Assembly (NCBI GenBank): GCA_023374045.1
Contig: CM041783.1
Span: 125,551,503 to 125,615,502, forward strand
Reading direction: 5' to 3'
Origin: Limonium bicolor
Taxonomy: Eukaryota; Streptophyta; Magnoliopsida; Caryophyllales; Plumbaginaceae
DNA: 64,000 nucleotides
The notes beneath the pieces were generated by a model. The model saw only the letters and a list, made by a program, of their open reading frames with translations. It was not told the origin of the DNA and did no database searches. Positions 194-63,508 of this stretch are shown here, one piece after another. Positions within the stretch are counted from its first letter, which is position 1. Every line of letters starts with the position of its first letter. A program made the translations under genes and the position numbers.

Positions 194-354
194 TGAAATA
201 CCCCGAACTTAAATATAGGGATTAAAATTAATCTAATACGTATTTAAGGGCCTAATGGTACCTGATTAATATTAGTAAGGAAAAATAAATCCAAAAGAAA
301 TAAAGAAAACGCTTTAAAAGCGGAAAACACTAAATAAGCGTTAAATAACCATAG

Positions 355-369
355 GAGGTATGAGACCTC
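355..369 (+). other. Short hairpin GAGGT-ATGAG-ACCTC near LTR start
   Basis: A 5-bp perfect stem with a 5-base loop. The same hairpin occurs at the same LTR position in F (about 5639 and 45299), A LTR1 (about 6831), LTR2 (about 19533) and LTR3 (about 32290). It is the first of several small hairpins in the 5' 550 bp of this LTR group. Confidence 0.5.
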
Positions 370-739
370 GGTCAGAGTATTATAGGGATTCTAAAGGTTT
401 AATAAGACCTAAATAATATATGGGAACAACTCCCGAAGAAAACGGATCCTTAAAACGGATTAAAATCACTAACGAACCTTAAAACGTGTTTTTCGAGGTA
501 ACCGGGAAAACGTGTCTCTAAGCGGGTCAAATAGACTCGTAACAATTTTGGTCAACTAAATAATCATTAATAAATATTAGTGAAGCCTTAGGACCAATAA
601 AATCAATAAAACGAGGAATTAGTAAAAACTGTCAAAAACGAGAAGTTGTGGGGTAGAAACATAAATAACACAAACTTATGTGTCCACTTTTAAAATAAAA
701 AAGTAAAATGTATGTGTGTGCTGTGTGTATGTCCGATTT

Positions 740-1520
740 GGACCCCTCACTCACACTCTCTCACACACACTCACTCCCTTATTTACAAAACTACAAAACT
801 AATAAAGTAAACACTTACTACTTTATTACCCCACACTCTCACACTCTCTCTCCTATCTCTATCTCCCTCTCTCACGTAAATCCCCCACCCTCACTCTCTC
901 TTTTATCTTCTTCTTCCTCCTCCAGCGATTTCCATGGAGAAATGGAAACACCCACACAAAACTCCACTTCTCTCCTCTTGTAACCCCCTTGAATCTCTTC
1001 CAAAAATTATAAAAACTACACCATTGGAATCCTCTCATCAAGAGCTACATTCCTATCTTTTCAAAAATCGAAAACAACAACTTTCATCTCCATGGGTATG
1101 GAGCATTTGGAGTTCCAAGACCACCATTAGAACCACCTCTTCCTCCTTGTCATTTTAAGGTAAAAATCTTCTTGAAACTCCTTTGTTTTTCTAGCCTCAT
1201 GGGTAAAACGAAAATGAAGCTAAAACTTTGTTTGGTTTCTTTACACTCTAGCCGATTTTGGCTTGTTGAAGGAGTTGGAAATATTGTTCTTGAACCACTC
1301 CAAGCTTCATTTGCACCCTTGCAAGGTAATGCAATTTTCTAAACCCTAAAACCTACATTAAAGCTTAAATAATGTTTAGGGTTAGTTTTAGTATTGAAAT
1401 GGTGTGTATTGTTATGGGTTGTAGCACTTGTGTGTGTGAACCTCATTGGGACCGAGAAAAAAGGAGAAGAAAGGAAGAGAAGGAAAGAAAAGGAAATAAA
1501 ACTAGAAACACAAGGTAACC
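740..1520 (+). promoter_or_regulatory. CT-rich leader of LTR D with donor-like AAGGTAA sites
   Basis: A pyrimidine-rich block (about 740-910) is followed by donor-like sites near 1157 (TTTTAAGGTAAAAATC), 1325 (TTGCAAGGTAATGC) and 1514 (ACACAAGGTAACC). The same order of CT-rich block then AAGGTAA sites is found in the A, F, E and B LTRs. It looks like a transcribed, possibly spliced, non-coding leader. That reading is inference; no promoter was identified with certainty. Confidence 0.35.
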
Positions 1521-2454
1521 ACCTTTACCTTGAGCTTGTTTCGTATGTAGTAGTGTAACAGTATTGGAGTAGTAAAATGAGTAACGAATTGAGGAATGAG
1601 TAGTAAGCATATTGTAGTATGATGAGTAATGAGATTGTAACAGTTTTGAAGTTTTTAAATGAGTTTTAAAAGCTGGGGAAAACGTTGGGTATTGATTGAG
1701 TATGTGCAGGAATTCTAGTGTGTTGTAATGATGTTGAGGTGTGGATATGATGTATTGTATAAAAAGGTTGTGAGAATGGGAAATTGTGAGCTGAAATGGT
1801 GTGTGAGCAAGTAAGAATTATAGGGGAGACTATGTCGAATTCTATCTAGGGATTTGAGGACATAGATACATTTGGAACAGATTTTGGAAAGTAAAAATGA
1901 GTGGTTTAGTAGCTGGTAACAGATTTGGATATGAGGTTGTAAATGGGATGGAATTAGGTTGTGAGTAATGTATTTTGGATGATAGGAGTAGCATTAGTTG
2001 AGGAAGTAATGGAGGTTAGAAGTTGAGTGATAAATCTGTAGCATGATAGTGGAAACCAAAATCTGTAGCAAAGTGTATTAATATGCATTGGAGAAGTTAG
2101 GAAGGATTAGTGTGCAAGAATTGGTAAAAAGAGTGTTGGACTTGGGTATAGGTACTGCAATGGCTTGGAAATGTATTTGGGATGCAAAGGATGGTATTGG
2201 TAGTAGGAGTATTGAGTGTAAAAAGTTAGAACAAAAATCTGTAGCATTGAAGGATGAAAATCTGTGGTAAGTGTGGAAAGGAAGTGATGAAATTGCGTAA
2301 GTTGATTGATGGATTTAGTAAAGAATTTGGTGGGTGAACTAAGGCAATTTGGAGGGCCTAGGTAGTGTTTAAACATGTGGGATTACATGTAAGAAGATTG
2401 GAGAAACAATGGGTAAAGTATAGAACTGAAAACATAAATAAAAATGCAAATACT

Positions 2455-2860
2455 GGGCCGGACCGAACTTGCGACCGGCCTTGCAAGTTCAGTCGAGCCC
2501 AGATTTACAAAGACGGGAATGCTTCTGGAATGGACCGAACTTGCGACCGGACTTGCAAGTTCGGGCGGACAAGAAAAATTCTCCCATCAGTAACCTTCTG
2601 GAATGGACCGAACTGGCGACCGGACTTGCAAGTTCGGTCGGCCAGAAAAACAATTTCTGTCGAGTAAGCTACTGGAATGGACCGACCTTGCGACTGGACT
2701 TGCAAGGTCGGTCGGGCTAAAATTTTCACATACGAAACTTACTGGAATGGACCGACCTTGGGACCGGACTTGCAAGGCCGGTCGGCCCTGTAATTCTCCA
2801 GCGCAATTCCTTACTGACTTGGACCAAACTTGCGACCGGACTTGCAAGTTCGGCCGAGTC
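2455..2860 (+). repeat. Six-copy two-arm/one-antiarm palindromic array (LTR D)
   Basis: Six units start near 2455, 2526, 2600, 2673, 2744 and 2815, a period of about 71-74 bp. Each has a left arm such as GACCGAACTTGC, a second direct arm GACCGGACTTGC, then an inverted arm GCAAGTTCGGTC. Units 4 and 5 read GACCTT in the left arm and AAGGTC or AAGGCC in the inverted arm. Spacers differ between units while the roughly 40-bp core is kept. Open frames cross it on both strands because of the palindromy and are not genes. Confidence 0.9.
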
Positions 2861-3078
2861 ATACAAAAAAAAATTATTTAAATTAAATAATTATATATAT
2901 GTATATATATACCCACACATATATATATGTACATGTATGTAAGCATGCCAACATTAAGTAAGAAAGTAAAACTTAAGGTAATGAAAAATAAGTAAGTAAT
3001 GTGTAAGTGTAAGAAGTATAAGGACATAGTAAGTATGAGTTAAGTTAATGATAGATAGATTAATCATTCAACTGTATG

Positions 3079-3087
3079 TATATATAA
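3079..3087 (+). promoter_or_regulatory. TATA-like box in LTR D
   Basis: TATATATAAT lies just before the block GTGAACACCGGAGGAACG that is kept in the D and A LTRs. The A LTRs have a weaker GTATATCATAGG here. A transcription start about 30 bp downstream would put the R region in the best-conserved part of the LTR. This is position-based inference. Confidence 0.3.
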
Positions 3088-3424
3088 TAGGATTTGATTT
3101 GTGAACACCGGAGGAACGTTGGGATACAAGTACAACGGTGAAAGGTATGATTTCTTCATGCCCTGTATCCTAATCTGGTTACCCCGATTTGTGTGCTTAT
3201 TTGACCACCTAAATAAGATAAATGCATGAATCGGACTATATTGCACTTACCTGTGCTTGACTTATGTTGTGCTTGATATTTATTGTCTTGAGCACTAGTT
3301 TGTATAATTCATGAAATATATGAATGATGATGAATGGTATTCGAACCTCGTATTGTACTTGTGTAATGTACTGTACCTCGTATGTATGTGTATATGGGTA
3401 TTGTATTATTGTGGCTTGGATGTT

Positions 3425-3490
3425 GACTTCTGCTAATTCCTAACTACCTAACTCCTAACTTAAGTGAGTAAATTGGAATGAGTAGAAGTC
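3425..3490 (+). other. Long imperfect inverted repeat in LTR D
   Basis: GACTTCTGCTAATTCC (3425-3440) faces GGAATGAGTAGAAGTC (3475-3490), 14 of 16 positions complementary, around a loop with CCTAACT repeats. The same structure is present in the A and F LTRs; in F one mismatch is repaired (GACTTCTACTAATTCC). It may fold in LTR RNA. Confidence 0.5.
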
Positions 3491-4051
3491 CGATATAGTT
3501 TCGGCCACGCGTGAGGATGAGGAGACACAAGAGGTTGGATCCGATTCCTGGTTCGTAAGCTGGTCCACGGCCCAAATCCCTTAAGTGGGTAGCATCCTGG
3601 ATTAGTGAACCAAGTAAAGCCTGGTGGTAGGATGGTGTAGTCCCTGCCCAGAGGCCATACCGGCTTAACATGAGTAAGAGTATGTAAGTAAGTATGTATG
3701 AGTACGAGTATGAGTATGAGTATGTATGCGTATGTATGGAGTAACGAGTAAAAGTGTAATCTCCACCCGATTAACCCGGGTGGACCAATGAAGCTAACAA
3801 GAACTGTACTTTGTGTATGTAATGGGTATGTATATTCAGAAGAAGGTAAGTATGTATTGGATGGTTATATTGTATTCCTTGTATGTAATGAAGTGTATGT
3901 ATGTATGCTTGCATAAGTATTATTGTATTGTGTATAAGAGCATATATGCATGTATGTTTGAAAGAAAATGAACTGCATGTATTCGACCAAGTGGTCGGCG
4001 TACCCTCACTAGTACGCGGGGTATGCGGTTATCATGCGCAGCGAAAGCTGA

Positions 4052-4062
4052 CCCCCAGGGGG
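4052..4062 (+). other. C5/G5 hairpin followed by a T run (LTR D)
   Basis: CCCCCAGGGGG is followed by AACG and six Ts. The A LTRs have CCCC-TTCG-GGGG then T runs, and F has GCCCC-TA-GGGGC then T runs. The stem is kept while loop and closing pairs change. Confidence 0.5.
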
Positions 4063-4489
4063 AACGTTTTTTGTGCAGGTACCCGAAGCGGATGTGTTCA
4101 AGGTAAGAGACCGGCGGCACAACCTTGTATCTAGAAAGTAAGTAGTTGTGAGGAGTGGGGGTAGTAAGTAGTCTCCTAGTGAGTATGTATGAGTTTGGAA
4201 GAGGTATACTTGTATGAGGATCCTAGTAGACTCGGTAATGTGAATTAAATTGTATTGTACATGGAGTATGTATGGAATGAGATTGTACTTATTTGGTAAA
4301 TGGAGTATGTGTTGTAGTTGTGTAGTACTCGGATTCCGGTCCATCAGACCGCTGCAGTATGTAGTAGCAGTAGCCTTTTCTATACGACACATTGTATCAC
4401 CCACATTATGTAAGTATGTATCCGCTGCGTGTATCTGATGTGTAAGGAGATTGGACGGTAAGCATTGTATTAATGGTAGGGGTGTTACA

Positions 4490-5488: not shown

Positions 5489-6668
5489 TGAATTACCCCG
5501 AACTTAAATATAGCGATTAAAATTATCCTACTAGGTATTTAAGGGCCTAAGTAATATTGGTAAGGAAAAATAAATCCAAAAGAAAAAAAGAAAACATTTT
5601 AAAAGCGAAAAACACTAAATAAGCGTTAAAGGACCATAGGAGGTATGAGACCTCGGTTAGCGTATTATACGGATTCGAAAAGCTTAATAAGGCCTAAAAA
5701 ATATATGGGAACAACTCCCGAAGAAAACGGATCCAAATAATGTATTAAAACGCTATTGAGCTTTAGCGCACGTTTTTCGAGAAAACCCGAAAACGTGACT
5801 TAGAGTGGTCAAACGAACCCGTAAAAATTATAAAACATTAAATAACAATAATTAATCATTAATGGAAGCTTAATAACCAATAAAATAAAAAGAAACGAGA
5901 AAATTCCCGAAAACGGGCCCGGTTAGGGAATAGTACCTAAACCGGGTAAAATAACGAGCGTTTTTTGCAAAAGACGAAAAACGCTCCAACTAGTATAACA
6001 GTAGGGGGCGGTTTTTAATCAGTCAAAAGCCCTCACACACACTCACATACTAGCTAGTTAATTAAGAGGCAAAAAGCAAAAAGTAAAAAGTGCCTCACAT
6101 ACCCTCTCTCCTCTCATTTCTCTCTTCTCTCTCCCATTTCTTTCTTCCTAACCATACTCTCTCTCTTTCTGCTCCCTTCTTCCTGCGATTTTGATCTCCC
6201 CACTACAACAATAGCAGCCCTCTCTTCTTCTCCATGCTCTACCTCCATGTGAGCTCCAAATGTAAAAATAATTACATATTCTTACTCCCCTCCTCATCCT
6301 CCACACTTCCCTCTTTTCAAAATCCAAAAATGAGGAAGTTCACTCCATGGGTTTTCCCCATTCAAAGAGGAAATAGCATCAATGGGTAGCTTGGAGTCTC
6401 CTCTCTCCATTAAGGTAAGAATCTTCATGAAAAACCCATGTTTTCTCCACCTTCCTTTGTAACCGATTTTTTCCCATTGTAATGCCCTATTTTTCTCTCT
6501 CTTTTGAGCACCAATTCAACCTTGCAATGGTGATGGAATCACCTTCTTGAACCAAGGGCTAAAACCACTCCTAAAACACTTCAAAGGTAAACCCTTGAAA
6601 TTATGTTTTTAACACTTATATGAATTAGTATAAATCTAAGGGTTAGCATTTTAATTATACTTGTTTTG
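5489..6668 (+). mobile_element. Element F, 5' LTR, left fragment
   Basis: Starts TGAATTACCCCGAAC (one base off the TGAAATACCCC of its 3' LTR at 45137) and matches 45137-46225 along its length. It contains the hairpin cluster, a CT-rich block (about 6100-6190) and AAGGTAA sites near 6413 and 6585. It is interrupted at 6668 by element A and resumes at 36425. The two fragments together make an LTR of about 4.18 kb. Confidence 0.85.
6664..6668. repeat. Target-site duplication TTTTG, left of element A
   Basis: TTTTG precedes the TG of LTR1 and recurs right after LTR3 at 36420-36424. The two copies bracket the whole three-LTR structure, so it descends from one integration event. Confidence 0.9.
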
Positions 6669-6829
6669 TGAAATACCCAGAATTTAAATATAGGGATTAA
6701 AATTAATCTCATATGTATTTAAGGGCCTAATGGTACCCAATTAATACTAGTAAGGAAAAATAAATCCAAAAGAAATAAATAAACGCTTAAAAAACGAAAA
6801 ACGCTAAATAAGCGTTAAGTAACCATAGG

Positions 6830-7175
6830 AGGTATGAGACCTCGGTTAGCATGTTATATGGATTCTAAAGGTTTAATAAGACCTAAATAATATATGGGAA
6901 CAACTCCCGAAGAAAACGGATCCAAATAAGGCATTAAAACGCTAATAGGGCTTTAACGCACGTTTTTCGAGAAAACCCGAAAACGTGATTTTAAGTGGTC
7001 AAACAGACCCGTAAAAATTATAAACCATTAAATAATAATTATTAAGCATTTATGGGAGCTTAGTAGTCAATAAAAATAAAGAAACGAGAAAATTCCGGAA
7101 AACGGGCCCGGTTAGTGAACAGTACCTAAACCGGGTAAAATAACGAGCGTTTTCTGTAAAAGACAAAAAACGCTC
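6830..7175 (+). other. Cluster of small hairpins near the LTR1 start
   Basis: In series: GAGGT/ACCTC; CACGTTTTTCG with CGAAAACGTG (6959-6987); CCCGGTTAG with CTAAACCGGG (7107-7135); GAGCGTTTT with AAAACGCTC (7145-7175). The series is repeated in LTR2, LTR3 and both F LTRs, with small changes mostly in loops. Role unknown. Confidence 0.5.
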
Positions 7176-7259
7176 CAGCTAGTGCAACTGTAGGGGGGCG
7201 GTTTTTATCAGTCAAATAACTCCCTCACACACACATGTAACTAGCTAATTAAATAAGAG

Positions 7260-7995
7260 AGCCAAAAAGCAAAAAACAATAAAGTAAAAGCTACTTTATT
7301 CTCTTCCCTCTCCCACTCTCACAATTCACTCACCTCTCTCTTTCCTTCCTCCCCTCCATCGAATCTCCCTCCCTCTCTGCTGGAATGGGCGATTTTGAGC
7401 TCTCCCCACAACACAATGGCTACTCTATCTTCTTCCTCATGCTCCATCCACATGTAAGCTCCAAATCGAAAACAAATTACATATTTGAACTCCCCTCATC
7501 ATCCTCTATCATTCTCTCTTTTCAAATTCGAAAAGGATGAGTTTCATCTCCATGGGTTTTCCCCATTTGAAGAGAAAAGCACACCATTATGGAGCTTGGA
7601 GTCTCCTCTTTCCAACAAGGTAAAAATCTACATGAAAAACTCATGTTTTCTTCATCTCCCTTCATAACCGATTTTTACCCTTGTGTAATGCCTTGTTTTC
7701 TCTCTCTCTTTTGAGCATAATATCAACCTTACAATGGTGGTGGATTCACCTTCTTGAACCAAGGGCTAAAACCCCTTCTAAAACTCTCCAAAGGTAAACC
7801 CTAGAAATTTCATTGCAAACACTTCAATGAATTGACATTAATTTAAGAGTTAGTATATTAATTGTAGGGTTCTGTGTTCATTAGGTGATGGGAATGGAGT
7901 TTTACAACTCCATTCCCCACATGGCCGATTTGGGCAAGAAAGGAAGAAGGAGGAGAGATGAGAAAGAATGAAGGAATTATAAGCTCAAGGTAAGA
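7260..7995 (+). promoter_or_regulatory. CT-rich leader of LTR1 with three donor-like sites
   Basis: A pyrimidine patch (7300-7380) is followed by donor-like GT sites at 7620 (CAACAAG|GTAAAAATC), 7794 (CCAAAG|GTAAACCC) and 7990 (CTCAAG|GTAAGAGC). Candidate acceptors between them are CTTTTGAG (about 7713) and TTCATTAG (about 7885). This resembles two or three small non-coding exons. Codon use and open frames do not support a protein. Confidence 0.35.
7890..7917 (+). other. Perfect hairpin GGGAATGGAGTT in LTR1
   Basis: GGGAATGGAGTT and AACTCCATTCCC form a 12-bp perfect stem. It is kept in LTR2 (20602-20629, 13 bp), LTR3 (33358-33385) and F (36440-36467), while the loop changes (TTAC, GG, TGGC). 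Confidence 0.6.
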
Positions 7996-9029
7996 GCTCC
8001 TTACTAATGTTAATTTTTATGCATTAGAGCAATGGAGTGGGTAAACAAGTAAAAGAACCTAAACTATTGTATTGGTATGGGAGTCTATGAAGTTTTGAGT
8101 ATTTGGGAACTAGTGGGTAAGTTGTAGGCCTTAGAGCCAAGTATATTGTGTGTGAGTATTGGTATTGATGTTGGAAGGAGTATTGATGTATTGTAATGGT
8201 TTAGATTGCCTTGTACTGCTGGTAGGACCCTTGTATGGGTGTGGCTAGAATAGGAATGGTTTTGGTGAGAATGTGTATGTGTGGCTAAGTAAGAAAAGTA
8301 GATGAACTATAGCAAAATTTTGGTAGGAATATGTGCATTTATGGATGACTTGGTGAATGGGAGAACCAAGGTATGTATTGAGGATAGTAGAGATGTTTAA
8401 TGACCATGGAGTAGTGATTATAGTATGAGAATGAAAGAATGTAAAATCTGCAACAAAAGTGTTGAATGGTATTGGAGGAACTAGGAGAACTTATGTACTT
8501 GACCTAGGGAATGAGTGTTGGACTTGAAGTGGTGAGACAATGCATTGTAGGCCTTGGAGATGGCATTAGGAGAGGAAATTATGTATGGAGGAAGTAGGAA
8601 CCAAAATCTGTAGCAAAGAGGTATCAAATTGTATAGAAGAACTAGGAAAGATTAGTGTGCAAGAATTGGTAAAAAGAATGTTGGACTTGGGTATAGATGG
8701 TACAATTGCTTGGAAATGAATTGGCATGGCAAGAGGAGGTATTTGGGATGCTAGGAGTGACATTGGTGGAGGAAGTATTGGATGGTAGGAGTTGTAGCAA
8801 AAACTGTAGCGTTAGAGAATGAAAAACTGTTATAAGTGTTGAAAGGAAGTGAGGAAATTGTGTAAATTGGTTGATGGATTTAGTAATGAACTTGATGAAT
8901 GAACTAAGGTGAATTAGAGGATTTAATTAGTGTTTAAACATGTAGGAAACATGTGGAAATGAGTAGGAAAAGATTGGGTGTGAATTGAGTAGAGTTTGAA
9001 GTTCAAAATGAGTAATTAAAATAAGTACT

Positions 9030-9279
9030 GGGCTGGACCGACCCTAGCAGGGTCGGTCGACCCGAAAATTTGCAATCTCGGAAGCTTCTGCATCCGACCA
9101 ACCCAGGGGACCGACCCTGACTGGGTCGGTCGAGTAGAAATTTTAGACGGGAAATGCTTCTGTAACAGACCGACCCAAGGACCGACCCTGGCTGGGTCAG
9201 TCGGATTGGAATTTTCTGTAATTGGAGTCTCTGCAGCCGACCGACCCATGGGTCCGACCCAGGGTGGGTCGGTCGGGTC
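9030..9279 (+). repeat. Four-copy two-arm/one-antiarm array (LTR1)
   Basis: Units start near 9030, 9094, 9167 and 9236. Arms are GACCGACCC, direct, with an inverted GGGTCGGTC. Units 2-4 show two direct arms before the inverted one; unit 1 is shortened to one of each. Same layout as in D, F and C with different arm sequence. Open frames here on both strands are by-products. Confidence 0.88.
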
Positions 9280-9306
9280 AAACTTACAAAAAAAAAACTA
9301 AAAGAT

Positions 9307-9313
<7 letters not shown>

Positions 9314-9357
<44 letters not shown>
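9314..9357. repeat. (TA)n microsatellite in LTR1
   Basis: About 22 TA units just after the palindromic array. The same site is shorter in LTR2 (about 13 units) and LTR3 (about 8), so length has drifted between the copies. Confidence 0.95.
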
Positions 9358-9359
<2 letters not shown>

Positions 9360-10514
9360 CACCGATACATATGAGCATATATAGTAAGTATACCATTGTT
9401 AGGCAATGAAAAGTAAGTAAATAAAATGTAAGTATAGGACTGTAAAGACTTAGTAAGTGTGAGTTAGGAAACATAAGGATAATCGAACTAAATTAATGAT
9501 AGTTAGATTAATTATTCGATCGTATGTATATCATAGGATTTGATTTGTGAACACCGGAGGAACGTTGGGATACAAGTACGACGGTGAAAGGTATGATTTC
9601 TTCATGTCCTGTATCCTAATCTGGTTACCCCGATTTATGTGCTTATTTGATCACCTAAATAAGATAAATGCACGAATCGGACTATATTGCACTTACCTGT
9701 GCTTGATTTATGTTGTTCTTGATATTTATTGTCGTGAGCACTAGTTTGTATAATTCATGAAATGTGTGAATGATGAGGACTTGTATTCGAATCTTGTATT
9801 GTGCTTAAGTATTGTGTTGTATTTTGTATAAGTAGGTATTGAGCATAGTAATTGTGTATGTGGCTTGAATGAATGACTTCTGCTAATTCCTAACTACCTA
9901 ACTCCTAACTTAAGTGAGTAAACCGGAATGAGTAGAAGTCCGATATAGCTTCGGCCACGCGTGAGGATGCGGAGTCACAAGAGGTTGGCTGCAATTCCTG
10001 ACTCTTAACTGGTCCGCGGCCAAAATCCCTTAAATCGGTAGCATCCCGGATTTGTGAGTCAAGTAAATCCCAGAGGTGGGACGGAGTAGTCCCCAGGGCC
10101 GGAGGTCCCGACGACTTAACTTGAGTAAGAGTAAGAGTAAGTAAGTATGGATCCGTAAGTATGTATGAGTATGAGTATGTATATGTATGTAATGAAGTAA
10201 CGAGTAAAAGAGTAATCTCCACCCGATTAACCCGGGTGGACCAATGAAGCTAACAAGTATCGTATGTTGTGCATGTAATGTATGTGTGTAATTCGGAAAA
10301 AGGTAAGCATGTATTGAATGGTTTACGTTGTACTTCTTGTATGTAATGAAGTGTATGTATGTGTGTATGTCTTACGTACTGTATTGCAATATTATGTATA
10401 AGAGCATGTATGCATGTATGTCTGAATGAAATCAACCGCATGTATACAACCAAGTGGTCGGCGTACCCTCACTAGTACGCGGGGTATGCGGTTATCATGC
10501 TCGGCGAAAGCTGA

Positions 10515-10526
10515 CCCCTTCGGGGG
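10515..10526 (+). other. CCCC-TTCG-GGGG hairpin near the 3' end of LTR1
   Basis: A 4-bp GC stem with a TTCG tetraloop (UUCG in RNA, an exceptionally stable loop), followed by ACATTTTA. LTR2 and LTR3 have ACATTTTTTAG at the same place. See the related hairpins in D and F. Confidence 0.5.
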
Positions 10527-10968
10527 ACATTTTAGTGGCAGGTACCCGAAGGATATGGTCGAGGAGAGACCGAGGCACACCCTTGTACTTAGAAAGTAAG
10601 TAGTTATGAGAAAATGGGTAGATGTAGACTCTTAGAGAGTATGTATGAACTTGGAAGAGACATTATAAATGTATAAGGATTCTAGTAGACTCGGTGAAGT
10701 ATATTGTATTGTATGGATTGAGGAGTAAGTAGTGAATGGAGCATTGTTGTAATTAATTGATGAATGGAGTATGTATTAGAGGTGTAGTACTCGGGATTCC
10801 GGTCCATCAGACCGATGTTGTAAGCAGTAGTAGTAGCCTTGTTAGCCATGTGGGTGGCTAACGGCATTGTATCACCCATTGTACGTAAGTAAGTATCCGC
10901 TGCGTGTATCTGATGTGTAAAGGGATTGGACGGTAAGCATGTATTAATGGTAGGGGTGTTACAAAAAG

Positions 10969-10980
10969 TGGTATCAGAGC
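10969..10980 (+). promoter_or_regulatory. Primer-binding site, INT1
   Basis: TGGTATCAGAGC, complementary to the 3' end of initiator-Met tRNA, five bases after the LTR end. Confidence 0.92.
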
Positions 10981-10996
10981 GGAGTGCCGCTCTGAT
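10973..10996 (+). other. Perfect hairpin overlapping the primer-binding site (INT1)
   Basis: ATCAGAGCGG, loop AGTG, CCGCTCTGAT. The 5' arm is the last eight bases of the primer site plus two. F has ATCAGAGCGA-AGTA-TCGCTCTGAT, where the terminal pair changed on both sides, and B has ATCAGAGCGG-AGTA-CCGCTCTGAT. Confidence 0.75.
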
Positions 10997-13726
10997 GACT
11001 AGAAATACCAAGTCTAGGAAATACCGAGTTAGGAATTAGAAGCTTAGGGCTAAGGGCTGAGTGTTAGCATTAGAGACATGCTAGTTAGGAACTACCGGTG
11101 AGTACCGGATACCTACAATACCAGTCCCGCCCGCCGCACACCCCACTGTATAACTTGGGAAAGGACGCCAGAGAGAAGAAAAGTCTTCTCATACTCGGGG
11201 AAAACCCGATCTGGCAGTGGTGAAGCAATCACACGGTAAACAAGAACCGACATATGATAGATTCCAAGAACTGGAAATCCCGGGGATGGATCCCGATTGA
11301 ACCGCAACACCGCACGTAATGGCGGTAGGATGAACACTCCAACCACGAGGAGGCTGCAACTTACAACAGCATGGGGCGACGTGCTTAGCAGTCGCGAAAC
11401 CTAGCTAGCTAACCAACAGCAGGAAAGAAGCACTCACCGTGCAACGGAATGGAAAAGGGAGCAGCAACGGAACCCGAGACACAAGTCTACGGGATAGTAA
11501 TACTTGAATAATACCACCAACGGTATGCTAGCCGACTAAGGACATAGTCAGAAGCGGTTAACTCCAAAACTATAATGCCATTAAGGTTGCAGTACCTGGG
11601 CGATAAGCTCAGACAACTACAAGAACAACCATGAGATACAAACCATAGGACTACGAGAGTAGTGCCTAAACGAGGAAGGTTCAGTAACCACCACAAATGT
11701 GTGGGAACGAGCCACAAGGAACGACACTAAACCAAATAGAACGGGAACCTCCAAGAAGTGGAGGAGTACCCAGATCTACGACAGCCATGTCTAGACCACC
11801 AAGAAGCCACCTAAAGGAGCGAGTATACCAATTATAGTTCAATAAGATCGAGGGAAGCGTCAACAAGACTAACAAACACAAATGGAAACCATACCGTGAC
11901 CGGTATAGGATTACTCAAAAACCGCCAGTACCACGCACTTGCTACGCAAGTGCAGTAAGAACATAAAATGTAAGGAATACCACCCGCCAATTACATTATA
12001 ATGTATGGTGACCGTAATGAACAACCACAGATCACACATCCTAACAACCAGACGTATGAAACTTGGAAGGCTTAACGGCCGACTTACTGTACTTACCAGT
12101 CAGCGAGAAGCTAGACTTGTCAAGACCTCAAGCATGGTTATGCCATGAGAGACTTCTTTTAACACCGAACCATATTTTAAAACCCAAAAATTTTCTTTCA
12201 AAACCATAAACCTTCTTTTAAAACCTTGGATTTTAAAACCAGGCCAACAGCATTACGGTGAGTATCAAAGAGTGATACAAGAGGATTTGACAATAGAATA
12301 CTACACCTAGGCGTGTGACGAACACTACGAGTGTACCCGTTACGGGATGTGGGACAACCGCACTCCGAAGGACTTGCGGGCCCGACATATAGTTGGGTAA
12401 GTGGTAACGTATCAACATGGTACCCCATATATGTATACATGTAGTGTACGACACACGGGAAGTAGTCAACTCCCTCTACGGACCATCAGTAAGTTCAACC
12501 CAGGACAGCTGGACACCTCAGAGGATCAAGCATAAAGGAACTCAGAGAATCCATCTGAAGATGAGGAATAAGAACTAGGAAGTGCAAAGAGCACATGCTA
12601 GTAACTATAGACGTTGGATATGTCTCAATAATCTAAGCAATTACCTGACAGCTGGATGGAATGCCCCGCCTAAACACATTAAGGCGAATGCCTAACGTGA
12701 ACCTAACAATACTCAACAAACGGGCAGAATTCCCAAAAGCAATCACAAAATTACCACGAAGCACAATCCATGATCGGAGAGGATATTCAAACCTAGTCTC
12801 AAGTACTAGGAACAAGTATAAACAGTCTACCCAAGGACGGGAGACGTCATGACCCAAAAGGGGACAACTCAAGTACAATACCACAAGACGGTACAGTGGA
12901 CAACATATCATAAACATTAGCCGGATGTAACGGCATAACTACCAGCACCCAGGAGCGATCCTTGAAGGGTGTCTGCGTTAACAACAGTTGAACAAGCACA
13001 ATGATATGAGCACGGGAGCTAAAACGAACACTCGGTTAGGACACCGAAGGGATTTCACTTAACAGGAATGCCCTAAAATACTGAGAGGCACCTATTGACA
13101 CCAGATTGCCTGAAGGGTCTCCTATGAACGGAAGCGTGACGTCACGACTTACCATGGAGCCCAATAATATCTCAACCTATGACGGTATACATGGAGTGGA
13201 AACATGTATAAGCAGCTTACGAAGAGCATGGCTCGCAACAATTCGGCTTAAAAGCCATAAACCGACTACGTTATGCAACTTAAACGGTTGCAAAACCCAC
13301 ACCATTTGATAACAAGACTTGCAAGAGATATTGCCGCATACGACAAGAAATCAACAACTGGACCCTCAGTTCAAACCCAACATCCTGAGTGGCTTGGAGT
13401 AATGGCCACCTCAGTGTCACTGTCACTAGAGCATCGGTCTAGTATGCAGTTGACGGAGTTTAATTACCCCTCATGCCTTCGTGGCAATTGTACACAGAGG
13501 CATAAGAAGCATGATAATGCCAACATTAGCCTAGTCCACACTTGGACTCTACGAGAAACCCAAGGGAAGGTACCCCTCGTTAACCGAAGACCACCAATGC
13601 GGTGATGATGTGAACCCTTAGAAAAGGCTTCCATCTACTATAACAATAAAACCACACAATAGATATTGCCAAGCGGTGATGGAATAAGGAAATGAGATTT
13701 CCAAACCATTACGACTTAAAGGAGTA

Positions 13727-13731: not shown

Positions 13732-14265
13732 TGTAACGACCCCAAAACCACCCTGGTTGAGAGACCGTTACACGCCGCGCGCTTATTACCTAAGACAACG
13801 CAAGGCTACACTAGCGAACTCCCAAAACAGAACTGAAGCTCGTATATTACCAAATAAACAATTACAACATGTCTTTACAATACACAGGCGGAAGCCAAAC
13901 TAAAATACAAAGCATAATCTAAATACAACTGGGCCCTAAGGCCAAACAAACTAAATACAAAACTCAAATGCCAAACGAAAAGCAAGAGCTGAATCTCCAA
14001 GCACGAACTAAAACCTGCAAATCAGACGGAGATAGGGGGTGAGCAAAACTATTGCTCAGCAGGTGATAAACTTCATCAGCTGAGCACGCTCAAAACATAA
14101 TCTGAACATACATACTTATACATATACAGAAGCGCTTAGCTAGGGCGAAACCAAAGTCAAAGCAGGAGACTTTCAAATAGGCGGAAGTCTAAAACAGAAG
14201 AGGCTAAGCAGTGGTCAAAGTATACACTTAATAGCAGAAGGAAAACTGAAGCTGAAAGCTTGACG

Positions 14266-14341
14266 AAATCAGAAGCTTAAGAACCTCAGAAGCTTAAACA
14301 CAATCAGAAGCTTAGGAAAATCAGAAGCTTAGCAAAATCCG
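14266..14341. repeat. AATCAGAAGCTTA minisatellite in solo LTR C, copy 1
   Basis: Four degenerate copies of a 15-20 bp unit around AATCAGAAGCTTA. Copy 2 (26997-27090) has one more unit, so the number changed after the duplication or in assembly. Confidence 0.8.
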
Positions 14342-15175
14342 GAACTTATCAGAAGACAGTACGCACACAGCAGACCGTCTCAATCAAATACTGATAGAGC
14401 AGACGAAGTGGAGCACTTTACAAACCAGAAATCCTCAAAACAGGAAGCACACAGCAGCCTATCTGAGTTTGAAAACAAACAGAACTGGCGGAAGCAGTAC
14501 AAGCAAACATAGGTACTCAAAGGACAGAAAGCACACAGCAGTCTGTCAAATACAAAAGCAGAGAGAACGGACAGAAGCCGAACAGAACACAAACAGAAGT
14601 GGGACACTAGCACCAAGCATAGCACTCAGAAAGGGTCAAAGACCCATGGATCTAACAGATCCCTCGACAACGCAGAAATGACCCGAAGGCCAAAGGGTTC
14701 GTCAACCCCACAGAACAGATTGGGCATGACCCACACTCAGAACGACGTCTACATGGTATACCACGGAATAGCTCGACCCAGCCATTCACGGCTCAGAAGC
14801 AGAGTAACTAGGTCCCAAAACAGAGGCTTAATCCAAACAGATCGAAGCTTAATACAGAGCAGAGCGGAAGTCTTAACCAGATCAGAACAGAAAGCGAAAG
14901 CCTAGCAAAATCAGAGAAGGAGCTTACCAATGGAAAGCCTTAGCAAAACAGAAGTCGAACCCGATTAGTAAATACGAAAGCAAACTGAAGTCAGAGGTTG
15001 AATCATATTTTCAGAGCAAAACAGAGTTCAAAAGATTAACGGAGACCTTAACAGAAAACACTTAAACCCATGCTAAAACACGTGAAAACAGATAGTACTC
15101 GAAAAGAGGAATCCAACGCCGCAAACGGCACTCAAAACGGAGCTCGAACGAAGAAGTTATGGTGAAAACAGAGGG

Positions 15176-15488
15176 GTGTCCGAACTTGTGTCCGGACGTC
15201 GAAGTTCGGACGCAAGTCGAACTCAAATCCGCAGAAAATTTCAAGGTGTCCGAACATCCAAGTTCGGACGGATGTTCGGACGTCCTTCGGAAAACAACTC
15301 GAGGAAAGTCCGAACATATGTCCGAGCTTCAAAGTTCGGACACATGTCGAAGAGAAAATCAGAGGCGCAAAACAGGGTGTGTCCGAACTTCCAAGTTCGG
15401 ACGGAAGTTCGGACACAGAGAAATTCTCAGAAAATCCAGACGCAACAGAGCGTGTCCGAACTTCCAAGTTCGGACGGAAGTTCGGACG
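15176..15488 (-). repeat. Five-copy two-arm/one-antiarm array in solo LTR C, copy 1
   Basis: Units start near 15176, 15250, 15307, 15375 and 15452. On the plus strand a typical unit reads GTCCGAACTT, CCAAGTTCGGAC, GGAAGTTCGGAC. In the sense (minus) direction this becomes two direct GTCCGAACTT arms followed by one inverted AAGTTCGGAC arm, the same order as in D, A and F. Confidence 0.88.
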
Positions 15489-16476
15489 CGCCGAAAAGTG
15501 CAGTTTACAGAGGCGATTTTCACACGAACAAAAGCACAAGACAATGCCAAATTAACATATGTTTGCAGCAACCAACTTTGGGGATTTAAGCCATTGAACG
15601 GCAGTAAAACAGACAGAATAAACACACACACGAAGTTAATCAAACGATTTAATTTACAGAACGAAACTCTTAAATCAGAAGCACTCAGAGTTTGCAAAAC
15701 AGAAGGGAATCACAGAGGTAGATTCGCCATTGTCAAAATATACTTATATATCAACATACGCAAAACACAACGATTCCCACGGGGTTGTAACACATCAAAA
15801 CACAAATCCGGAACACACACAAAGTTACCACAAATCAGAAACCACGCAAACACATACGGAAAACAACGAAACTAAAACCCCCGTGGGTGAACGCACACAA
15901 CTGAATCCATCTACCACCTACCTCACATCCGTAGCTAAGCCATCTCTGCGGACTCTACGAATCGTCTTCCCGAATCTCCAACCGAATGATAATCCCTCGA
16001 ATTGAACCGCTCCCAAAATATACAAAATCAGAATTAGAAAAGAGAAGAGGAAGCCTCAACGAAGAAGAGAATCAGATCTACAACCCAAACCTGACTGACG
16101 ACTGACAGACGAGCAGAATTCCACGGGCGGATCTCCAGCGATTATCAATCAAAAGGAATTGAAGAAGAAGATGAGCAAAGGGAGGAGAAGTTGAGAGCAA
16201 TGAGAACGTCGAGAGAACCGTCAGGGTAGTGGAAGGAGGAATAATAACGTGAATAGAAGTTTTAGAAAGGAAGAGAATAAATTAAAGAATTAAGAAGTCC
16301 CTTCCCTAAAAATAAATAAATAAAAAAGCATGTTATTTCTAATTCTCCTTCCTCAAGCTATGACCATAATATTTAAGGAATGTCATAAACACTCTAGTAT
16401 AAGGTACAAATTAATCTAAACTCCCTTTGCGAATCAGAAGGAATATGATAAAATAAAAAAAAACTGGGGCATAACA

Positions 16477-21746: not shown

Positions 21747-21996
21747 GGGCTGGACCGACCCTAGCAGGGTCGGTCGACCCGAAAATTTGCAATCTCGGAA
21801 GCTTCTGCATCCGACCAACCCAGGGGACCGACCCTGACTGGGTCGGTCGAGTAGAAATTTTAGACGGGAAATGCTTCTGTAACAGACCGACCCAAGGACC
21901 GACCCTGGCTGGGTCAGTCGGATTGGAATTTTCTGTAATTGGAGTCTCTGCAGCCGACCGACCCATGGGTCCGACCCAGGGTGGGTCGGTCGGGTC
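21747..21996 (+). repeat. Four-copy two-arm/one-antiarm array (LTR2)
   Basis: Same as the LTR1 array, including CCGACCAACCC in unit 2, where LTR3 has CCGACCGACCT. Confidence 0.88.
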
Positions 21997-22034
21997 AAAC
22001 TTACAAAAAAAAAAAACTAAAAGATTATGATTAG

Positions 22035-22060
22035 TATATATATATATATATATATATATA
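22035..22060. repeat. (TA)n microsatellite in LTR2
   Basis: About 13 TA units at the site that has about 22 in LTR1. Confidence 0.95.
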
Positions 22061-27930: not shown

Positions 27931-28243
27931 GTGTCCGAACTTGTGTCCGGACGTCGAAGTTCGGACGCAAGTCGAACTCAAATCCGCAGAAAATTTCAAG
28001 GTGTCCGAACATCCAAGTTCGGACGGATGTTCGGACGTCCTTCGGAAAACAACTCGAGGAAAGTCCGAACATATGTCCGAGCTTCAAAGTTCGGACACAT
28101 GTCGAAGAGAAAATCAGAGGCGCAAAACAGGGTGTGTCCGAACTTCCAAGTTCGGACGGAAGTTCGGACACAGAGAAATTCTCAGAAAATCCAGACGCAA
28201 CAGAGCGTGTCCGAACTTCCAAGTTCGGACGGAAGTTCGGACG
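27931..28243 (-). repeat. Five-copy two-arm/one-antiarm array in solo LTR C, copy 2
   Basis: Reads the same as the array at 15176-15488. Confidence 0.88.
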
Positions 28244-34497: not shown

Positions 34498-34747
34498 GGG
34501 CTGGACCGACCCTAGCAGGGTCGGTCGACCCGAAAATTTGCAATCTCGGAAGCTTCTGCATCCGACCGACCTAGGGGACCGACCCTGACTGGGTCGGTCG
34601 AGTAGAAATTTTAGACGGGAAATGCTTCTGTAACAGACCGACCCAAGGACCGACCCTGGCTGGGTCAGTCGGGTTGGAATTTTCTGTAATTGGAGTCTCT
34701 GCAGCCGACCGACCCATGGGTCCGACCCAGGGTGGGTCGGTCGGGTC
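34498..34747 (+). repeat. Four-copy two-arm/one-antiarm array (LTR3)
   Basis: As in LTR1, with private changes (CCGACCGACCT in unit 2, CAGTCGGGTTGG after unit 3). Confidence 0.88.
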
Positions 34748-36419: not shown

Positions 36420-36424
36420 TTTTG
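36420..36424. repeat. Target-site duplication TTTTG, right of element A
   Basis: Matches 6664-6668. Joining the flanks gives an uninterrupted F LTR. Confidence 0.9.
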
Positions 36425-37389
36425 TGTGCTTTGGATGACGGGAATGGAGTTTGGCAACTCCATTCCCCATGTAGACGATTTGTGCAAGAAAGAGAGGAGG
36501 AGAAATGAAAAAGAAATGAAGGAATTAAAAACTCAAGGAAAGAGCTCATTTTTAATGCTAGATTTTTAGTGCATTAGAGTAATGGGAATGGGTAAACCAA
36601 TTTAAAGATCCCAAACATTATATTAGTATTGTAGTTGTGGAAGTTTAAGTATTTGTGAGTAAGTATGTGGATTGTAGGCCTTAGAGCCAAATGATTGTGT
36701 ATGTATATTGGTATTGAAAGTGATGGTGTATTGATGTAGTGGGAATTGCTTTTATTGCTGGTAGGACCCTTGTAAGGGTGTGGCTAGATTAGGAATGAAT
36801 TTGATGAGGAAGTATATGTGTGGATAAGTAAGAAAAGTAGGTGAACTATGGCAAAATTTTAGTAGGAAATGTACATTTAGGGATGACATGGTGAATGGGA
36901 GAACGAAGGTGTGTATTGGGTTGAGTAGAGATGTTTAGTAACCAAGGAATGATTGTTGGAGGATGAGAGTAGAGTGTGTAAAAATCTGTAACAAATAGCA
37001 TGTGAAATGCATTGGAGAAACAAGGAAAAGAGTAAGTGTTAGTAACCTTGGAAATGGAGATTTGACTTGGGTATAGGTAGTACATATGTCTAGGATGTAA
37101 AGTAATGGATTTAGGATGCTAAGGGTAGCATTGGTATAGGGAGTATTGAATGGTAAAGGTTAAAATGAAAATCTATAGCATAAGAGGAATGAAAACTATT
37201 GTAAGTGTTGAAAGGAAATGAGGAGAAATTGTGTATGTGGATTTAGAAATGAGTAAGGAATTTGGTGGTTGAACTAAGGCAATTTGGAGGGTCTAAGTAG
37301 TGTTAAAACATGTGGGATTACATGTAGGAAGATTGGGGAAACAATAGACAAAGTATAGAACTGAAAACAGATTTTAAAACTGAAATACT

Positions 37390-37649
37390 GGGCTGGACCG
37401 GCCTTGGGACCGAACTTGTAAGGTCGATCGAGCCCAGATTTACAAAGACGAAAACCTACTGGAATGGACCAACCTTGGGACCGGACTTGCAAGGTCGGTC
37501 GGACCAAAATTATCCAGTAATGTAACTCACTGGAATGGACCGACCTTGGGACCGGACTTGCAAGGTCGATCGGACCAGAATTTTCCAGCGATGAAACTTA
37601 CTGACTTCGACCGACCTTGGGTCTGACCCTGGGTAAGGTCGGTCGAGTC
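37390..37649 (+). repeat. Four-copy two-arm/one-antiarm array (F 5' LTR)
   Basis: Units start near 37390, 37462, 37532 and 37604. A typical unit has left arm GACCGACCTTGG, second arm GACCGGACTTGC and inverted arm AAGGTCGGTC. The inverted arm matches the outer left arm, not the middle one, at the variable position. Confidence 0.88.
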
Positions 37650-38920
37650 AAAACAAAAAAAAATAAATAAAAAAACAAAATGATATGATTATAGTAATCA
37701 TAGGTATATGTATATATACCTATACGCATATGTATATGTATATATAGTAGTACATCATTAATAGGATGGAAATGGTAAGAAAGTATGCACATGGGTAAGA
37801 AAACAAGTTTGAGAAAATTGTGCACTTAGGAACATTAAGTTAAACCGAACTAACGGGATAACGGGGTAAGTATGGGAGTAGTAATTATGAATGTAGTGTA
37901 ATGCTTAGTATTAATGGAACCATTTGGCATGTATCCGGAGGTTCGAGAATAAGACTCAAGGAAAGAGAGTGAATCAAAGGAACAAGGGAACACCCGATAA
38001 AGTAAATCAACGGTGAAAGGTATAATTTCTTCATGCTCTGTATCCTAACCTCGTTACCCCGATTTGTGTGCTTATTTGATCACCTAAATAAGATAAATGC
38101 ATGAATCGGACTATATTACGCTTATTTGTGCTTGTTTATATTGTTCTTGATATATTTGTTTTGAACAATAGTTTGTATAATTCATGAAATGAATGGATAA
38201 TGATGATTGTGTATGTACCTTGTAGTGTATTTGCATAATGTATTGTACCTTGTATGTATGTGTATGGGAGTATTGATTTATTGAGTGACTTGAATGTGAA
38301 TGACTTCTACTAATTCCTAACTACCAAACTCCTAACATAAGTATTGAGTAAATTGGAATGAGTAGAAGTCCGATATAGTTTCGGCCACGTGTGAGGATGA
38401 GGAGACACAAGAGGTTGGATCCGATTCCTGGTTCTTAAACTGGTCCATGGCCCAAACCCCTTAAATGGGAAGCATCTTGGATTAGTGAACTAAGTAAATC
38501 CCGGTGGTGGGAGAGAGTTGTCTCCGGGCCGGAGGTCCCGACGACTTGACTTGAGTATGTAGTAAGTAAGTAAAGTAACTACTGTATGAGTAATGGTCTT
38601 GGCTGGTGTAAGTCATTGACCCCGAGTAAAAGAGTAATCTTCACCCGATTAACCCGGGTGGACAAATGGAGCTAACAAATATTGTATTGTGTATGTATTG
38701 TGTATGTGTATCCCAGAGAAAGGTAAGTAAGTATTGGTTGACAGGTATTGTCTTCCTGTATGTATTGAATTGTGTGTATGTATCCTTGTGTAGTATTGTA
38801 GTATCATGAGTGCATGTATGTATGTATGTATTGTAAATGAACTGCATGTATTCGACCAAGTGGTCGGCGTACCCTCGCTAGTACTTGGGGTATACGGAAG
38901 TCATATGCAGCGAAAGCTGA

Positions 38921-38932
38921 GCCCCTAGGGGC
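38921..38932 (+). other. GCCCC-TA-GGGGC hairpin before a T run (F 5' LTR)
   Basis: Same place as CCCC-TTCG-GGGG in A and CCCCCAGGGGG in D; followed by AACATTTTTAG. The closing G-C pair is new on both sides. Confidence 0.5.
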
Positions 38933-39430
38933 AACATTTTTAGTGTGCAGGTACCCGAAGCGGACATGATCACGGTAAGAGATCAGCAGCTATGTGTGGA
39001 TAGCTAGGAGTGGAATGTAGTTAGTAGAGAATCGTAAAAGGCTTGGAACCTTGTAGGTAGTTGTGAGGAATGGGTGGATGTAGACTCTTAATGAGTATGT
39101 ATGAAATTAAAAGAGGTATTGTACTTGTATAAGGATCTTAGTAAACTCGGTGTATTATATTGTATGGAACTATCAAGTGTTGTATTGAATGGGAATTGTA
39201 GTACTTAATTGGTAATTGTAGTAAGGATTGTGTTTGTGTAGCACTCGGATATTCCGGTCCATCAGACCGATGCTGTATGTAGTAGTAGTAGTAGCCTTGT
39301 TGATCACATGGGTGGCTAACGGCATTGTATCACCCACCGTTGAGTAAGTAAGTATTCCGCTGCGAAGGTATGTAAGTACATTGTGTTTGGACGGTAATAA
39401 CGGTGTTAGCGGTAGGGGTGTTACAAAAAG

Positions 39431-39442
39431 TGGTATCAGAGC
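39431..39442 (+). promoter_or_regulatory. Primer-binding site, element F
   Basis: TGGTATCAGAGC. The overlapping hairpin is 39435-39458: ATCAGAGCGA-AGTA-TCGCTCTGAT. Confidence 0.92.
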
Positions 39443-55504: not shown

Positions 55505-56143
55505 TCATGTTAATACATGTATGGTAGTGTAGAGGGTAGCACCCATCGCCATCTGGATGCGAAATAATAGTCCTCCCCGGAACTTCTCGACCTTCACGGT
55601 CTCTGAGTAATCCACACCGGGAATGAAGTCCAACCGACCAATGAATCGAGAATAATACTCATCCACGGTCAGACCTCCCTGGGTCAATGTCTCGGACTCC
55701 TGGCGCTTCTTCTGTTTGAGATGTGCTGGGTAGTACTTCCCTCTCAGTAACTCGACAAAGGCAGCCCACGAAAAGTCAGGCGTAGCCAGGTGGTGGTCCT
55801 TGACCAACCTCCACCAAGTGCTGGCTGCATCCTTCAGATGGAAAGCAGCAATGGCGATCTTCTTATCGTCTGGTACCTGTAAAGCTTCATACGCTTTCTC
55901 ATGTTCAACGATGTAACGCTCCAAAGCCACGGGGTCGGGTTCCCCAGAATATGTAGGTGGTCGGGTCTCTATAACTGACTTCAGCCAGTTCGTTTCCCTG
56001 GGCTGTGGCGGGTGGGCTGGTGCTCCTCCTATCTGAGTACCCAGCTGTGCAAGAACGGCTGCAACCGTCTCAGCAACTCCTGGAATGCCGGGGTCACCGT
56101 CTCCACCTCTTCCAGTACCACGCCCTCTAGTTCCACTAGACAT
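55505..56143 (-). CDS. gag: gag, capsid domain (N-terminal 212 aa), Ty3/gypsy type
   Basis: Structural protein that forms the cytoplasmic virus-like particle of the retrotransposon. The start ATG (56143) lies about 230 nt after the primer site, as expected. Residues 4-16 are Arg/Gly-rich. The capsid (retrotransposon gag) domain covers about 52-200, with PPTYSG (62-67), FHLKDAASTWW (101-111), LLRGKYYP (132-139), LTQGGLTVDEYYSRF (153-167) and EKFRGGL (186-192). The frame stops at 55505 inside the domain's end; the rest lies in other frames down to 54788. So the gene is broken unless the interruptions are spliced out. It is the only recognisable coding region of the window. The family is clear from the ordered motifs; activity is doubtful. 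Confidence 0.88.
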   Translation of the reverse strand: MSSGTRGRGTGRGGDGDPGIPGVAETVAAVLAQLGTQIGGAPAHPPQPRETNWLKSVIETRPPTYSGEPDPVALERYIVEHEKAYEALQVPDDKKIAIAAFHLKDAASTWWRLVKDHHLATPDFSWAAFVELLRGKYYPAHLKQKKRQESETLTQGGLTVDEYYSRFIGRLDFIPGVDYSETVKVEKFRGGLLFRIQMAMGATLYTTIHVLT

Positions 56144-56344
56144 CTGTAGTACAGTATGTCACATAATTACTCGGTAAAATTACCGTACACAACCAATAGA
56201 TATTAAGTTGCCTTAAAGGCTAACCTGTCACGCAATTTGCGTTCTAGACACAATATCTTCCTAAGACGAATCGTCTCGTATCTCCCAAAAGTTTCCCAAT
56301 GTTTCCCAAGGCCTAAGTTCACTGTCTTAACCTACTTTCTCGTC

Positions 56345-62487: not shown

Positions 62488-63508
62488 GTGGCTAGATTAG
62501 GAATGAATTTGATGAGGAAGTTTCTGTGTGGATAAGTAAGAAAAGTAGGTGAACTATGGCAAACTTTTAGTAGGAAATGTACATTTAGGAATGACTTGGT
62601 GAATGGGAGAACCATGGTGTGTATTGGGTTGAGTAGAGATGTTTAGTAACCAAGGAATGGTAGTTGGAGGATGAGAGTAGAGTGTGTAAAAATCTGTAAC
62701 AAATAGCATGTGAAATGCATTGGAGAAACAAGGAAAAGAGTTAGTGTTAGTAACCTTGGAAATGAAGATTTGACTTGGGTATAGGTAGTACATATGTCGA
62801 GGATGTAAAGTAATGGATTTAGGATGCTAGGGGTAGCATTGGTAGAGGGAGTATTGAATGGTAAAGGTTAAAATGAAAATATGTAGCATTAGAGGAATGA
62901 AAACTATTGTAAGTGTTGAAAGGAAGTGAGGAGAAATTGTGTATGTGGATTTAGAAATGAGTAAGGTATTTGGTGGATGAACTAAGGCAATTTAGAGGGC
63001 CTAAGTAGTGTTTAAACATGTGGGATTACATGTAGGAAGATTGGGGAAACAATGGGCAAAGTATAGAACTGAAAACAGATTTTAAAACTGAAATACTGGG
63101 CCGGACCGACCTTGGGACCGAACTTGTAAGGTCGGTCGAGCCCAGATTTACAAAGACGAAAACCTACTGGAATGGACCGACCTTGCAGTAATGTAACTCA
63201 CTGGAATGGACCGACCTTGGGACCGGACTTGCAAGGTCGGTCGGACCAGAATTTTCCAGCGATGAAACTTACTGACTTCGACCGACCTTGGGTCCGACCC
63301 TGGGTAAGGTCGGTCGAGTTAAAACAAAAAAAAAAAAACAAAATGATATGATTATAGTAATCATAGGTATATGTATATATAACTATTCACATATGTATAT
63401 GTATATAAAGTTGTACATCATTAATAGGATGGAAATGGTAAGAAAGTATACACATGGGTAAGAAAACAAGTTTGAGAAAATTGTGCACTTAGGAACATTA
63501 AGTTAAAC
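62488..63508 (+). mobile_element. Element F, 3' LTR, right fragment
   Basis: Matches 36780-37829 of the 5' LTR. About 460 bp of F between 46225 and this point are missing compared with the 5' LTR. It is cut at 63508 by a new TGAAATACCCC start. Confidence 0.85.
63098..63320 (+). repeat. Contracted two-arm/one-antiarm array (F 3' LTR)
   Basis: Three whole units (near 63098, 63203 and 63276) and a stub (63171-63186) of a fourth that lost its middle and inverted arms. The 5' LTR has four. Confidence 0.85.

Follow-up and report, generated by a model that had tools for sequence, protein, structure and literature searches.

What keeps the arms of a hairpin complementary while their letters change, and what might a row of such hairpins do in a long terminal repeat (LTR)? 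The question is raised by a 64,000-nucleotide stretch of Limonium bicolor DNA (the window), in which a first-pass annotation had described modules of two direct arms and one inverted arm, repeated in several LTRs and proposed to act as a switch between two hairpins.

Nested LTR elements and their arrays

The plant-like DNA in the window consists of nested LTR retrotransposons, here called D, F, A, C and G. D is a solo LTR of ~4.3 kb (194..4489, plus strand) with TG..CA ends and the target duplication TTACC on both sides. A (6669-36419, plus strand, target duplication TTTTG) has the order LTR-internal-LTR-internal-LTR, its LTRs lying at 6669..10963, 19373-23679 and 32131-36419, all on the plus strand. 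Its insertion cut off the 5' part of the F 5' LTR (about 5489-6668) from the 3' part (36420..39425, plus strand), which ends ..GGGGTGTTACA. The F 3' LTR is split by G, a nested minus-strand element with a 5.9-kb LTR that lacks the array. C lies outside the A LTR, as a 2.7-kb LTR-like insert (13732..16476, minus strand) in the A internal region, with the target duplication AGCAT. Both internal copies of the tandem A carry the same C insert, and for this reason the tandem most likely arose through unequal exchange after C had inserted.

The sense of C is fixed by its sister copy, in which the LTR is followed by a primer-binding word and a purine tract precedes the LTR; C runs on the minus strand, opposite to the other arrays in the window as earlier described. 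The primer-binding-site word, TGGTATCAGAGC, occurs in F at 39431..39442 (plus strand), in A at 10969 and 23685, in G at 56372 (minus strand) and in the sister copy of C. D, A and F belong to a single LTR family as its subfamilies, with block alignments over much of their LTRs at about 67-84%, and seven of the eight BLAST hits between C and the D/A/F LTRs at E 0.01 fall within the array, all seven to D. The supposed four LTR groups are therefore two, D/A/F and C, and the array is found in two families that can hardly be aligned elsewhere.

The D array (2461..2855, plus strand) comprises six hairpin units, each with an arm a, a middle arm b and an inverted arm c, and with arm-a starts at 2461, 2533, 2606, 2680, 2750 and 2822 (spacings 72, 73, 74, 70 and 72). 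Four units form the A array in the first LTR (9036..9274, plus strand; arm-a starts 9036, 9096, 9168 and 9239, spacings 60, 72 and 71), unit 1 being without a middle arm, and copies stand in the second and third LTRs (21753..21991 and 34504..34742, plus strand). F has four units in its 5' LTR (37396..37644, plus strand; starts 37396, 37467, 37538 and 37609, spacings all 71) and three whole units with a truncated one in its 3' LTR (63104..63315, plus strand), an array absent from the earlier annotation. The five units of C (15178..15487; minus-strand starts 15487, 15414, 15341, 15281 and 15211, spacings 73, 73, 60 and 70) include a third with an inverted middle arm, and a second C array (27933..28242, minus strand) was duplicated along with A. 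The unit counts and places first given for D, A, F and C were borne out, as was the spacing of about 70 bp, mostly 70-74 bp with exceptions of 60 in A and C. The order direct-direct-inverted does not hold throughout: direct b is absent from A unit 1, diverged in F unit 4 and A unit 4, and inverted in C unit 3. The D, A and F arrays lie just past the middle of the LTR, that of C in its 5' half.

A scan of the window for inverted repeats gave 69 places, 32 of them inside the arrays; three first-order Markov shuffles gave 27, 25 and 24. Further repeats in the window deserve mention in their own right. One is a hairpin, TATCAGAGCGN..NCGCTCTGATG, at the primer-binding site of A, F and G, which it overlaps (10972-10997, 23688-23713 and 39434-39459 on the plus strand, 56344-56369 on the minus strand); it has a compensated pair in F relative to A and could hide or present the primer site. 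A conserved hairpin GGGAATGGAG..CTCCATTCCC with a variable loop (7889-7918, 20601-20630, 33357-33386, 36439-36468) is found in the A and F LTRs and in many copies fetched from the genome. The G LTR contains GGTCAA/TTGACC palindromes, likewise with more than two arms (49352-49391 and 51135-51177; copies at 59547-59586 and 61331-61373), which we take to be W-box-like words, and a perfect 38-bp tandem repeat lies close to the end of one G LTR (62257-62330).

A coding function for the arrays was rejected, since most of the 70-74 bp spacings are not divisible by three; for C, the longest frame (15096-15875) had no Pfam match. Nor do the arrays represent a single recently amplified satellite: arm letters differ between families with pairing kept, and those in the window sit in LTRs.

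The LTRs of D, A, F and G end in ..GGGGTGTTACA, which fits the U5 att site of type A Del elements (GGG at -8 to -10; PMC4029996), and C ends in GGGGTCGTTACA, which is not an exact fit. The 4.3-kb LTRs of D and A fall within the Del length range of 1.1-4.8 kb described in the same source (PMC4029996), and the 5.9-kb G LTR lies above it. Pfam scans of 75 translated pieces of at least 45 aa (52 of 52 from A, 17 of 54 from F, 6 of 42 from G) gave no match at E 0.01, and the 69 of 106 A and F pieces scanned contained no reverse transcriptase or integrase of the Del lineage, nor any coding domain indicating copia or gypsy. A scan of 32 pieces had none above the cut-off and six weak matches (best DUF4405, 0.0024; zf-CCHC_3, 0.044). 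Among ten further pieces, only the gypsy-type gag of G, the element without the array, exceeded it (55505..56158, minus strand; Retrotrans_gag and Ty3_capsid over the curated cut-off). Judging from LTR ends and length rather than a polymerase tree, we file the array-bearing elements as probably Del/Tekay-like and non-autonomous. Large retrotransposon derivatives (LARDs) combine long LTRs with an internal region in which no coding domains are recognised; D/A/F resemble them in both respects, a likeness judged solely on missing Pfam matches as regards the domains.

Pairing of the arms and decay of the stems

Each unit is one dyad with a span of about 34-37 bp. One end is a constant 5-bp foot, G[AT]CCG, and the other is the inverse of this foot, CGG[AT]C; the inner stem of 5-7 bp varies in its letters by family while complementarity is kept. 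The D LTR holds two inner types, AAC/GTT in units 1, 2, 3 and 6 and ACC/GGT in units 4 and 5; both are paired, and the D middle arm stays near one sequence. Outer stems are perfect in all six units of the genome locus L004, in five of six in L002 and L003, and in four of four in L031, L033 and L051. Because several other D/F arrays have such perfect or near-perfect stems, we regard the D copy in the window as decayed.

We aligned 26 units (23 distinct), taken from the window (D 6/6, F 3/4, second LTR of F 1/3, C 5/5, and none from A, where lengths differ) and from hand-picked loci (L003 6/6, L031 2/4, one from L032 and two from L040). Outer arms a and c were paired in 90.5% of cells, against 83.2% after shuffling, and changed on both sides at 4 of 12 pairs (8 of 500 shuffles as high), and 14 cells showed such a change, against 4.8; this count leaves out C units 3 and 5, which appear as gaps. 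The innermost a-c pair (position 12 with 23) was open in 10 of 21 units.

Units were also collected without using complementarity, by searching for feet in 20 stretches of 4 kb at round genome coordinates. G[AT]CCG..CGG[AT]C pairs numbered 53 at 20-60 bp and 32 at 24-44 bp (some overlapping), and 23 of the 32 had a span of 34-37. At the next five inner positions these 32 pairs matched at a mean of 3.59 of 5, and partners drawn from different stretches at 1.77; full matches made up 10 of the 32, some of which overlap, against 1.9%. Seven pairs of span 37 include L071 and L077, each with two 16-bp palindromes, in which outer arms pair less well.

A second alignment took all 16 units of span 34-36, from five random stretches and partly related. 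In this set 95% of cells were paired against 76.7% shuffled, both-sided cells numbered 31 against 11.4, and the covariation score was 0.483 against 0.162; none of 500 shuffles, which take no account of kinship among units, came as high on any of the three. Both sides had changed at 6 of 10 pairs, which are all six positions left free by the choice of feet (2 and 6-10), position 10 through a single unit. Two of the five measures were weak: both-sided pairs numbered 6, with 4.6 after shuffling (equalled in 36 of 500 shuffles), and further pair types 10, with 10.3 after shuffling (equalled in 382 of 500). Slid partners reached at most 52.5% paired and a score of 0.152. The both-sided changes at 4 of 12 and 6 of 10 outer pairs agree with the earlier proposal that topology is kept while letters change. 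Unit-specific flanks pair as well (permutation p 0.0006, 18 units; D and F 0.017), weakly in C (0.095) and not detectably in A alone (p 0.50).

The same inverted arm was first thought to choose between two direct arms, giving two alternative hairpins per unit, and b and c can indeed still pair: 89.6% of cells were paired against 87.5% shuffled (23 units), with a covariation score of 0.129 against 0.091 that only 2 of 500 shuffles equalled. The middle arm does not follow c, however, since both sides changed at 1 of 10 b-c pairs (425 of 500 shuffles as high), against 4 of 12 for a-c, and at one position, where D and F differ, b fails to pair with c in 14 of 23 units. Moreover, three units (A unit 1, C unit 3 and F unit 4) have their direct b missing, flipped or replaced, and a direct middle arm is likewise lacking in the GTCCGGGACT arm type. 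The switch is thus poorly supported and in our judgement highly improbable.

Comparison of copies indicates when stems change. Against L003, 21 distinct D-type copies were 96-99% identical in the array and 35 to 100% in 100-bp flank bins, a contrast exaggerated by selecting copies on array similarity. Flank identity jumps many times between above 93% and 55-88%, and because it switches from bin to bin we consider D-type LTRs to be recombinant mosaics. In 248 D/F units from fetched copies, after dropping seven duplicate loci and ten units of other types, and with units below 7/10 paired missed, 193 were unchanged; the changes seen were 64 one-sided ones, with none compensated. Stems thus decay one side at a time after insertion, which points to compensation in active lineages or during reverse transcription.

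Genomic context and related systems

First-look candidates in the 2.92-Gb assembly numbered 5246 (D), 4883 (F) and 3130 (C); scoring covered the best 40 of each. The best 40 of the C candidates all matched the C array at 100% identity (rounded) over 326 bp. Many C places come as same-strand pairs or as tandems spaced 3.3-4.0 kb, and in L059, of the C family, about 0.85 kb lies between the LTRs. C looks like a very young, short-bodied non-autonomous family. Clusters of G[AT]CCG half-sites, not all of them assigned to LTRs, were found ten times in 7 of the 20 random 4-kb stretches (80 kb), as D/F-like, A-like, C-like, GTCCGGGACT and GTCCGTGG types, against one cluster in 20 shuffles altogether. 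This pattern gave the most clusters of 16 tried (four G/C, A/T second), the next giving 8, 7 and 4, of which the first two partly represent the same arms. More clusters appeared in the flanks of L016, L018 (twice) and L021 (251 kb searched; none in one shuffle). L018 has an LTR-like element, in appearance an Athila/Tat LTR, in which CCGGAC dyads at 361-530 and 930-1040 flank a clear TATA box.

Folding was scanned in 110-nt windows with a threshold of -40 kcal/mol, an energy tied to small RNAs in maize (PMC10760457). Windows below it lay inside the array in 15 of 15 cases in A, 13 of 13 in C, 5 of 5 in F and 12 of 14 in D; the F count is for the 3' part of the LTR, the 5' part having 0 of 108 windows below threshold. 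Windows with miRNA-like folding energy are thus confined almost entirely to the arrays in these LTRs. The antisense strand of C gave the same picture (17 of 17 in the array), so that folding energy does not discriminate between strands. D arrays of genome copies mostly have 22-27 CpG per 300-bp central window, with observed/expected ratios of about 1.2-1.5, and equal CpG richness occurs elsewhere in the window, for example at 5550-6050. Downstream of the array, at a distance of about 35-60 bp, D, A and F have a TATA-rich tract. C has no TATA within 120 bp after its array and a TATA-like word about 250 bp before it, and because this word precedes the array, the C array would lie in the RNA leader. 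In L018 one array stands about 175 bp upstream of CTATATAAACC, with further dyads downstream of the TATA.

The first-pass annotation knew of no named feature of this kind, yet palindromic arrays in LTRs have been described as the repeated-motif (RM) boxes of Sireviruses (Ty1/copia), repeated CGG-CCG boxes upstream of the promoter (PMC2829016). As described there, these boxes share with our arrays a palindromic CCG/CGG core, many repeats in the LTR and a CpG island, and several of them contain half-site words found in ours, such as CGGTCTGACCG, CGGACCGTCCG and CACCGGACTGTCCGGTG (PMC2829016). The signature of a palindromic CGG-CCG repeat in the LTR was found in the D, A, F and C arrays. RM boxes are ~10-20 bp long and, among the Ty1/copia elements compared in that source, specific to Sireviruses (PMC2829016), whereas the units described here are dyads of 34-37 bp with a loop, have the CCG foot first and CGG last, stand about 70-74 bp apart and belong to probably Del/Tekay-like elements. 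We do not assign the elements to the Sireviruses. Del/Tekay elements with a 5' CpG island resemble ours in their very long LTR, variable CpG-rich stretch and U5 end (PMC4029996). The main text of that paper has no words beginning palindrom, hairpin or stem, nor the term 'tandem repeat', and no CpG island is reported there for eudicot Del (PMC4029996). LTR palindrome clusters with strong predicted structure have likewise been described, in Ty1/copia elements (PMC10760457). Rfam gave no match at the gathering score, an IMG/VR scan with one D-type unit pattern gave none, and we recognised no description of covarying hairpin arrays in Del/Tekay LTRs in the open-licence literature searched. RM boxes and Del CpG islands are known, and what appears new against the literature searched is the long, CCG-footed, covarying hairpin unit in Del/Tekay-like non-autonomous LTRs.

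Possible roles of the arrays

We propose, at what we consider an even chance of being right, that the array is a palindromic cis-regulatory island with hairpin capacity in the long LTRs of Del/Tekay-like (Ty3/gypsy) non-autonomous elements. It would be a CpG-rich LTR island of four to six hairpin-capable units, repeats that regulate the LTR promoter in cis. A host DNA-binding factor would recognise the feet as half-sites, much as has been proposed for the Sirevirus boxes, and the middle arm would be mostly loop with a spare half-site; the dyads would fold when single-stranded or transcribed, and may feed small-RNA silencing. That unit symmetry is what is kept is much more certain than control of transcription by the array, which could equally be true or false. 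Symmetry is predicted by both a dimeric DNA site and a hairpin. The fixed foot, the CpG richness, the likeness to Sirevirus boxes and the nearby TATA-rich tracts lean towards control at the DNA level, whereas the unit-specific inner arms and flanks in one LTR lean towards a fold, and the two inner arm types within the D LTR fit poorly with a single DNA-binding factor.

The preservation of pairing rather than letters, and the fact that the arrays are the strongest folding windows, would also suit units that act as hairpins of the genomic RNA, in packaging, dimerisation or stability, accepted by the Gag of one autonomous partner. Within the LTR, C has almost nothing but the array in common with D/A/F at the BLAST threshold used, and it has the same primer-binding word, as the cis needs of trans-mobilised elements would predict; a TATA-like word may also stand upstream of the C array. 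We nevertheless judge such an RNA signal unlikely, as G.U pairs are not in excess over C.A (12 against 22 in F and 7 against 22 in D, where orientation is mixed, a weak count that mostly samples decay after insertion), three of the five C units, scored by eye, have a C.A beside the foot in sense, and the G[AT]CCG foot is also found in Sirevirus boxes. More doubtful still is that hardly alignable non-autonomous LTRs keep, or converge on, CCG-footed hairpins as a shared sign for one partner, be it Gag or a host factor; if true, the array would serve as a cis ticket to mobilisation in trans, and this would account for the array being almost the only part of the LTR that C and D/A/F have in common.

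Pairing could, on the other hand, be maintained by mutation, with reverse transcriptase or polymerase switching template and copying arm onto arm, and with no selection on the inner stem. This would account for perfect stems with family-specific letters and for unit-specific flank pairing, and the LTRs of the D family are recombinant mosaics. It leaves the fixed foot and span unexplained, however, and no correction was seen after insertion (64 one-sided against 0 compensated changes in the D/F units at least 7/10 paired), a result that leaves room for correction during reverse transcription, and we find it slightly harder to credit than an RNA signal. That the hairpins are solely a substrate of host silencing, a by-product yielding small RNAs, would agree with the arrays containing windows below -40 kcal/mol, the maize small-RNA criterion (PMC10760457). 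Selection should then purge the structure, yet the young-looking C keeps it in the best 40 of its 3130 candidates, all at 100%, which makes this explanation very improbable.

If the array is indeed a palindromic cis-regulatory island, then palindromic CCG arrays recur beyond the Sireviruses in other LTR retrotransposons. With 10 half-site clusters per 80 kb of arbitrarily placed DNA, such clusters are frequent in this genome, and the arrays offer an alignable and countable sign with which to ask whether LTR regulatory islands owe their shape to a host factor, to RNA structure or to copying at the reverse-transcription step.
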